NCBI GenBank assembly: GCA_030065815.1
Contig: JASJCU010000002.1
Location: forward strand, 1 to 64,000
DNA: 64,000 nucleotides
From: Gammaproteobacteria bacterium
GTDB lineage: Bacteria > Pseudomonadota > Gammaproteobacteria > Chromatiales > Chromatiaceae
Direction of reading: 5' to 3'
Of the stretch, positions 16,988-20,425 are shown piece after piece. Each line of letters begins with the position of its first letter. The stretch's first letter is position 1. The notes below the pieces were generated by a model. That model saw only the letters and a program-made list of their open reading frames with translations, was not told where the DNA came from and searched no databases. Position numbers and translations under genes: made by a program.

Positions 16988-17488
16988 ATGCCCCGTACCG
17001 GCCTCCTCCCGATCTCGTTGATGCTCGCGGCGTGCAGCGGCGCGCCGGCCGCCGACCACCTGCCCGGCCGGGTGTTGCGGGTCATCGACGGCGACAGCCT
17101 GGTGCTCGAGCTGCGCGGCGCGCAGCACCGGATCGAGCTGCACGGCATCGACGCGCCGGAACTCAACCAGCCGTGGGGCGGCACGGCGGCGGCACAGCTG
17201 CAGCGCCGGCTCGCCGGGGCCTTTGTCGTCGTCACCCGCCACGCCGTCGACCGCGCCAACCGGACCGTCGGCAGCATCCGCGTGCACGACCGCGACGTCG
17301 CCCTCGACCTGCTGTCCGGCGGCCTCGCCTGGTCGACCGTGCCGCTGCCGGATGGCGCCACCGACAGCCGGCCGCCGCACCCGTACACGCGGGCCGAGCG
17401 ACAGGCGCGCGATGCCGGCCGCGGCCTGTGGTCGGACGCCGCCCCGATAGCGCCGTGGGAGTGGCGACGGCGGCGCGCGCGACGCTGA
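16988..17488 (+). CDS. Staphylococcal-nuclease-like (thermonuclease family) secreted nuclease
   Basis: 'GRVLRVIDGDSLVLELRGAQHRIELHGIDAPELNQPWG' SNase motif plus a signal/lipobox-like N-terminus. Confidence 0.85.
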   Translation: MPRTGLLPISLMLAACSGAPAADHLPGRVLRVIDGDSLVLELRGAQHRIELHGIDAPELNQPWGGTAAAQLQRRLAGAFVVVTRHAVDRANRTVGSIRVHDRDVALDLLSGGLAWSTVPLPDGATDSRPPHPYTRAERQARDAGRGLWSDAAPIAPWEWRRRRARR

Positions 17489-19411: not shown

Positions 19412-19426
19412 AACGGAGGACCTACC

Positions 19427-20425
19427 ATGCCCAGCATCGCCTTCCCCCGCCTGTCGACATCCCTGCTGCTGCTCACGCTGTGTGCGCTGTGGCTCGGCGG
19501 CTGTGCGCCGAGCAACCGCCTGACCAAGGTCGTGCGCGCCGACCCGTCGGCGCCGCTCGGCTACGTCGAGGTCCACGACCGTGACAGCGGTATCGTCGCG
19601 GTGATCCGCGGCGGCCGCCGGCTCGGCACGCGCACGCCGCTGACCCTGCAGCCCGGCGACGAGGTCCGAACCGGGCCGGGTGCCGGCGCCGTGATCCGCC
19701 TGCTCAACGGCGGCGAGGTCGTGCTGGCGCCGGATACCCACGTCCGCCTCGGCTCGCTCGAGGTGTTCTTCGGCCGCGTGCTCGCCGACCTGCGCGGGCT
19801 GTTCGAGATCGAGGACGACACGCTGGTCGCCGCGGTCGAGGGGACGCGCCTGCTGTTCGAACGCGAGCGCGGCCGCAGCACCCGCGTCGCAGTGCTCGAG
19901 GGCCGCGTGCTGTGCATCCCGAAACGCGGCCACTGGGAGCCGGTGCGCCTCAACGACGGCCAGGCGCTGCGCACCCGCTATGCCAGCGACCGGCGCCCGG
20001 CGATCGAGCGCCTCAGCCGGGCCGAGATCGCCGACATCGAACGCTGGTCGTCGGGCATCCGCGACGCCGCGCGCGCCGGCTTCTGCTGTGCCGGCGGTCG
20101 GGTCACCGAGACCCTGTCCAACCAGTGCCGCGGGCGTTTCTTCGACAGCGAACGGCGCGCGCGCCGGCACTGCGAGTCGGGCTGGTGCTGTCGCAACGGC
20201 AGCGTCACGTCGAGCCTGCGCGGCGACTGCCGCGGCAGCTTCCACAACAACCGGACCGCCGCGGAGCGCGCCTGCGCCCCGCCGGAACCCGCGGTCGTAC
20301 AGGGCTGGTGCTGCCTGCAGGGCAACCTGCGGCAGACCGACAGCCGCTACTGCAAGGCGGTGCAGGGGCAGTTCTATACCAACGGCGCGGTCGCCAAGCG
20401 GCGCTGCCTGCCGGTGGTACAGTGA
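19427..20425 (+). CDS. FecR-domain lipoprotein with three C-terminal Cys-rich repeats
   Basis: Lipobox 'LWLGGCAP'; FecR-like 'LQPGDEVRTGPGAGAVIRLLNGGEVVLAPDTHVRLG..'; tandem units AGFCCAGGRVTETLSNQCRGRFFDSERRARRHC / SGWCCRNGSVTSSLRGDCRGSFHNNRTAAERAC / QGWCCLQGNLRQTDSRYCKAVQGQFYTNGAVAKRRC. Confidence 0.8.
   Translation: MPSIAFPRLSTSLLLLTLCALWLGGCAPSNRLTKVVRADPSAPLGYVEVHDRDSGIVAVIRGGRRLGTRTPLTLQPGDEVRTGPGAGAVIRLLNGGEVVLAPDTHVRLGSLEVFFGRVLADLRGLFEIEDDTLVAAVEGTRLLFERERGRSTRVAVLEGRVLCIPKRGHWEPVRLNDGQALRTRYASDRRPAIERLSRAEIADIERWSSGIRDAARAGFCCAGGRVTETLSNQCRGRFFDSERRARRHCESGWCCRNGSVTSSLRGDCRGSFHNNRTAAERACAPPEPAVVQGWCCLQGNLRQTDSRYCKAVQGQFYTNGAVAKRRCLPVVQ

Follow-up and report, generated by a model that had tools for sequence, protein, structure and literature searches.

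Tandem cysteine-rich units in a FecR lipoprotein encoded beside a TIR-CHASE2 receptor gene in a gammaproteobacterium

In the 64,000-nucleotide stretch of gammaproteobacterial DNA analyzed here (the window), a TIR-CHASE2 receptor gene is followed by a gene for a FecR lipoprotein whose C terminus carries three tandem Cys-rich units of ~35 amino acids each (Table 1), as an earlier note made from the DNA alone had described. The unit recurs, with all of its Cys residues, in two other bacteria that have the same pair of genes in an operon, and it thus appears to be a genuine sensing or anchoring domain that has gone undescribed. Judged by its sequence, the system appears to be a variant of the FecR-CHASE2 pair that bears a small repeat family unnamed in the libraries searched. 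We tentatively favor the reading, quite possible in our judgment, that the units are disulfide-stabilized binding modules on an envelope FecR partner of a CHASE2 receptor with a TIR output.

Table 1. Features of the TIR-CHASE2 and FecR genes and their products (window positions unless marked aa)
Feature	Position	Strand	Basis
TIR-CHASE2 receptor gene, 588 aa	17645..19411	+	Pfam TIR_2 E=1.5e-13, CHASE2 E=8e-26; hydropathy
TIR_2 of TIR-CHASE2	aa 8-148		Pfam, 51.8 bits, cut-off 28
First TM of TIR-CHASE2, single segment	about aa 169-203		Hydropathy
CHASE2 domain of TIR-CHASE2	about aa 184-512		Pfam E=8e-26
Additional TM segments of TIR-CHASE2	about aa 506-572		Hydropathy
GGAGG, ribosome-binding-like, in the 15-bp TIR-CHASE2/FecR gap	19415..19419	+	Direct sequence reading
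Repeat-bearing FecR lipoprotein gene, 332 aa	19427..20425	+	ORF; Pfam FecR E=1.1e-6; ortholog at 49%
Signal peptide and lipobox LGGC of FecR lipoprotein	19427..19504	+	Sequence; hydropathy peak aa 9-27
FecR domain, aa 78-161	19658..19909	+	Pfam PF04773, 29.5 bits, cut-off 24
Cys163 codon of FecR gene	19913..19915	+	Alignment of five FecR proteins
Cys unit 1, aa 217-251	20075..20179	+	Counterpart of the lone unit of the same-genus ortholog
Cys unit 2, aa 251-285	20177..20281	+	Sequence
Cys unit 3, aa 292-329, 3-aa insertion	20300..20413	+	Sequence

The Cys residues of each unit are spaced CC-x12-C-x(14-17)-C within the consensus xG[FW]CCxxGx[VL]x7C[RK]..GxFx6Ax3C of the window protein. The slight divergence of unit 3 that had been pointed out earlier is borne out: V is replaced by L and CR by CK, and three extra residues stand ahead of the conserved G. 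In protein sequence, identity is 40% between units 1 and 2 and 34 to 37% between unit 3 and each of them; because the DNA identity among the three is just 48 to 58%, the duplication is not recent. A chance origin is very unlikely by shuffle tests, in which the unit-unit alignments scored 8 to 10 SD over shuffled units (0 of 2000 shuffles reached the score for any pair) and the pattern CC-x(11-13)-C-x(14-18)-C occurred three times in only 67 of 300,000 shuffles of the same 116 residues. The strongest evidence against chance is the independent conservation of unit positions across three genomes: G2, C4, C5, G8, C18, G20, F22, A29, and C33 are invariant in all seven complete units, so that every Cys is kept in the orthologs, while no His, Asp, or Glu is conserved among them.

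One of these genomes, the Chromatiales MAG IP29b_bin.61 (G007), belongs to the same genus. It contains the same gene pair, and its FecR protein, 49% identical to that of the window, has exactly one unit (RAGFCCSGGAVAGAYSDACRGRFFTDEAAATAACKR). The other is a distant betaproteobacterial MAG (contig VBCY01000518.1, locus L060), in which the TIR-CHASE2 protein is 46% identical to P0002 and the FecR gene follows with a 4-bp overlap. Its FecR protein contains at least three complete units, some separated by Pro-rich linkers, which are long and lie both before and between units; a fourth unit starts (SGYCCANGQ) at the contig end. The FecR gene thus comes directly after the TIR-CHASE2 gene in 3 of 3 unit-bearing genomes (15 bp apart or with a 4-bp overlap), and the copy number is 3 in the window, 1 in the same-genus MAG, and at least 3 in the betaproteobacterial MAG. 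No unit turned up outside FecR proteins whose genes adjoin TIR-CHASE2 genes. Attachment to FecR, CHASE2, and TIR proteins, which the earlier note had raised, therefore holds; a link to caspase-like proteins, raised with it, was not seen.

AlphaFold2 modeled a single unit from a seven-row alignment with a pLDDT of 94.6 and a pTM of 0.62. The predicted mini-fold is beta-beta-short helix-beta-alpha, with strands at residues 2-6, 9-13, and 21-23, a short helix at 15-17, and a helix at 26-34. In the full-length model, which was made from a different alignment, equal elements appear in register in the three units at a local pLDDT of about 80 to 92. In the unit model, strand 1 contains C4 and C5, the last helix contains C33, and C18 comes after the short helix; since C5 would face the side of V10 in the two-residue hairpin, we guess that C5 pairs with C33 and C4 with C18. 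Disulfides could form, since DsbB and DsbA-family proteins are encoded in the genome of the window, and the four Cys of a unit probably form two of them, an arrangement that the earlier note had suggested and that fits the predicted fold, the even Cys count, and the DsbA/DsbB genes. Alternatively, the four Cys, all invariant and within about 35 residues, might hold zinc, copper, or iron, but the compartment is oxidizing, Dsb proteins are encoded, conserved His, Asp, and Glu are absent, and two adjacent Cys would be unusual in a tetrahedral Cys4 site, so that we regard a metal-binding module as most improbable.

Foldseek searches of the unit against PDB and viral structures returned nothing significant; the sole match, BPTI, was dismissed at E=9.5. 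The fold resembles none of the binding domains known so far, which counts against the binding-module reading and agrees with its main rival, a passive stalk or spacer. On this account, the units would do no more than add length, letting the FecR domain or the C terminus of the lipoprotein span the periplasm or wall, with copy number tuning the reach. The differing copy numbers among relatives and the long Pro-rich linkers of the betaproteobacterial protein are what one would expect of a stalk. However, the lone unit of the same-genus ortholog gives little extra length, and five non-Cys positions (G2, G8, G20, F22, and A29) are also invariant, which leads us to consider a stalk somewhat unlikely.

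The impression of the earlier note that the unit belongs to no named domain is upheld by searches of Pfam, NCBIfam, PHROGs, PDB sequences, and PDB folds, none of which gives it a name. The galaxin repeat (PF24748) is weakly matched by two of the three unit-bearing proteins, at 9.4 and 10.8 bits, the match extending across their repeats. The unit could accordingly be read as a divergent member of a described CC-type repeat, such as galaxin or the planctomycete repeat GACC...G.C...C...GG...C, which we take to be similar. Yet both galaxin scores are far under the Pfam cut-off of 28, and 0 of 7 units match Pfam when searched singly; such a kinship seems very improbable.

Profile searches of the family (146 genomes), a class sample (369), the order (210), and a phylum sample (399) yielded credible units only in the genome of the window and in the same-genus MAG, and the former held no further unit above chance level. 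Profile matches in other genomes, at E values of 6e-5 or worse, were rejected as chance. In a genome-contig collection, the three-unit alignment matched just the same-genus relative and the betaproteobacterial MAG, which has the unit nowhere besides its FecR protein; a whole-protein scan of the collection with P0001 found no relative, and plasmids and viral contigs contained no unit. Several other candidates were discarded: the L037 match lies within a TRAP-transporter gene region and has stops in the matched frame, those of L070 and L071 also contain stops, and the CC..C..C unit is absent from every listed frame of the L069 and L002 (0.014) matches. The repeat is rare, being found only in three operons; since the collection was scanned with exact degenerate peptides, by which divergent units would be missed, this rarity is an impression and not a census.

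A search of the order (204 genomes) with the CHASE2 region found the receptor in six genomes. The FecR partners of the more divergent TIR-CHASE2 proteins lack repeats, among them the FecR proteins of G002 and of G155 (L078), in the latter of which the FecR gene overlaps the TIR-CHASE2 gene. The Cys module would thus be an optional part, present on a subset of FecR partners; its varying copy number and its absence beside the more divergent receptors suggest that the system can do without the repeats. Other arrangements were also observed. A gene for a PstS-like periplasmic binding protein lies between the TIR-CHASE2 and FecR genes of G002 (L006), and the TIR-CHASE2 gene is tail-to-tail with a gene for a FecR and PG_binding_1 (peptidoglycan-binding) protein in G524 (L075) and, at the second receptor of G155 (L076), with one for a 7-PASTA protein. 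Occurring in the same family, the PG_binding_1 and PASTA neighbors hint at a cell wall theme.

The repeat-bearing protein is predicted by the lipobox rule to be lipidated at Cys26, and the +2 residue is not Asp; export to the envelope would follow from its signal peptide. The PF04773 cut-off is also passed by the orthologs (25.5 and 34.9 bits), and a PDB fold search with the full-length model retrieved the FecR-like anti-sigma regulators 4m0n/4m0h and PupR 6ovk, in agreement with the FecR assignment. This is not a FecIRA-type anti-sigma FecR: its N terminus is a signal peptide with a lipobox, and neither sigma factor nor TonB receptor genes are among the neighbors, which are TIR-CHASE2, TamB, TamA, SNase, and DAO-type oxidoreductase genes. 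The putative SNase-domain lipoprotein gene (16988-17488) is immediately upstream of the TIR-CHASE2 gene, a place taken by a different gene in the same-genus MAG. The full-length model also matches 5ix9, a cell surface anchoring domain in the PDB; this match probably falls on the FecR part, because in the ortholog the FecR region is weakly hit by the NCBIfam model of the LapA retention module. The FecR-domain region may have structural kinship, of weak significance, to the surface-anchoring domain 5ix9 and to the LapA retention module.

For the TIR-CHASE2 receptor, hydropathy predicts an N-terminal TIR domain in the cytoplasm and a periplasmic CHASE2 domain. Our literature search found no published description of such a receptor. 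The Glu of the TIR motif VRxE/WE (E93, a position assigned by motif) is kept in all TIR-CHASE2 proteins compared, including two more distant ones, which is consistent with, and no proof of, TIR NADase activity. The Thoeris ThsB and ThcB4 models weakly match the N-terminal TIR stretch over ~65 residues (PADLOC ThsB, 32.9 bits across 67 residues), far under the NCBIfam cut-off (51.5 versus 220 bits), and the immediate neighbors scanned include no Thoeris partner. Eight places in the genome of the window (G000) match TIR-CHASE2, mostly by the TIR part alone, and the genus looks rich in TIR proteins.

Two further sets of Cys residues were observed. Cys163, a lone Cys just past the FecR domain, is invariant in 5 of 5 aligned FecR proteins of TIR-CHASE2 loci, with repeats or without, and Cys325 and Cys405 of CHASE2 are conserved in the three closest TIR-CHASE2 homologs. 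Together with the twelve unit Cys and the vicinal CC of each unit, these residues could point to a thiol or redox sensor, in which oxidation of the unit Cys, perhaps with Cys163, would report periplasmic redox stress to CHASE2-TIR. Nonetheless, the fixed spacing, the even Cys number, and the small, confidently modeled fold look structural, and Cys163 is not tied to the repeats, since FecR proteins without them keep it. We consider redox sensing improbable.

With neighboring FecR and CHASE2 receptor genes on one strand, the locus belongs among FecR-CHASE2 pairs. In the Burkholderia BiofilmReg operon, a LysM-FecR protein adjoins a CHASE2 histidine kinase (COG4254); as in the window, a periplasmic FecR protein with an extra module sits beside a CHASE2 receptor, but that module is LysM and the output is a histidine kinase with a response regulator instead of TIR (PMC5192318). 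In Campylobacterota, a FecR outer membrane protein is likewise clustered with CHASE2 adenylate cyclases, for which the authors propose one pathway; there the output is cAMP, and the portions of that paper drawn on here do not mention Cys repeats (PMC9239204). The metacaspase-CHASE2 protein of Trichodesmium has a one-plus-three TM layout and a caspase-like domain where the window protein has TIR, and it has been interpreted as a receptor whose effector part is free in the cytoplasm (PMC3501461). By analogy with the FecR-CHASE2 pairs and metacaspase-CHASE2, we take TIR to be the cytoplasmic output and the FecR lipoprotein to be the envelope partner.

The Cys units occupy the LysM slot of other FecR partners, which is why we prefer to see them as binding modules. 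This explanation is favored by (i) the invariant Cys, (ii) the shared gene order, (iii) the confident unit model, (iv) the Dsb genes, (v) the FecR-CHASE2 literature, (vi) the hint of a cell wall theme at related loci, and (vii) the kept E93. The units would be copies of a small disulfide-stabilized module that makes up the C-terminal arm of the lipoprotein. Co-expressed with the TIR receptor, the lipoprotein presumably contacts its periplasmic CHASE2 domain, a contact read from gene order only. The arm would serve as an exchangeable module for binding a ligand or a component of the envelope, the FecR domain would pass the signal from the arm to CHASE2, and the TIR domain would be the output, possibly through NAD+ cleavage. 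A bolder version, in which an undescribed disulfide-rich family forms the ligand-binding arm of a two-protein TIR receptor and relays an envelope or external cue (damage or surface phage) through CHASE2 to TIR, is in our view quite unlikely; such lipoprotein-CHASE2-TIR sensing would be analogous in layout to the extracellular sensing of animal TIR receptors.

Most work on bacterial TIR domains treats them as phage sensors of the cytoplasm. What CHASE2 domains bind is not known (PMC5192318). With a lipoprotein that has an unnamed, conserved Cys module as its partner, a TIR-CHASE2 receptor offers a concrete handle on both CHASE2 ligands and bacterial TIR sensing, and the Cys-repeat module could serve as bait for the signal of the TIR-CHASE2 system.
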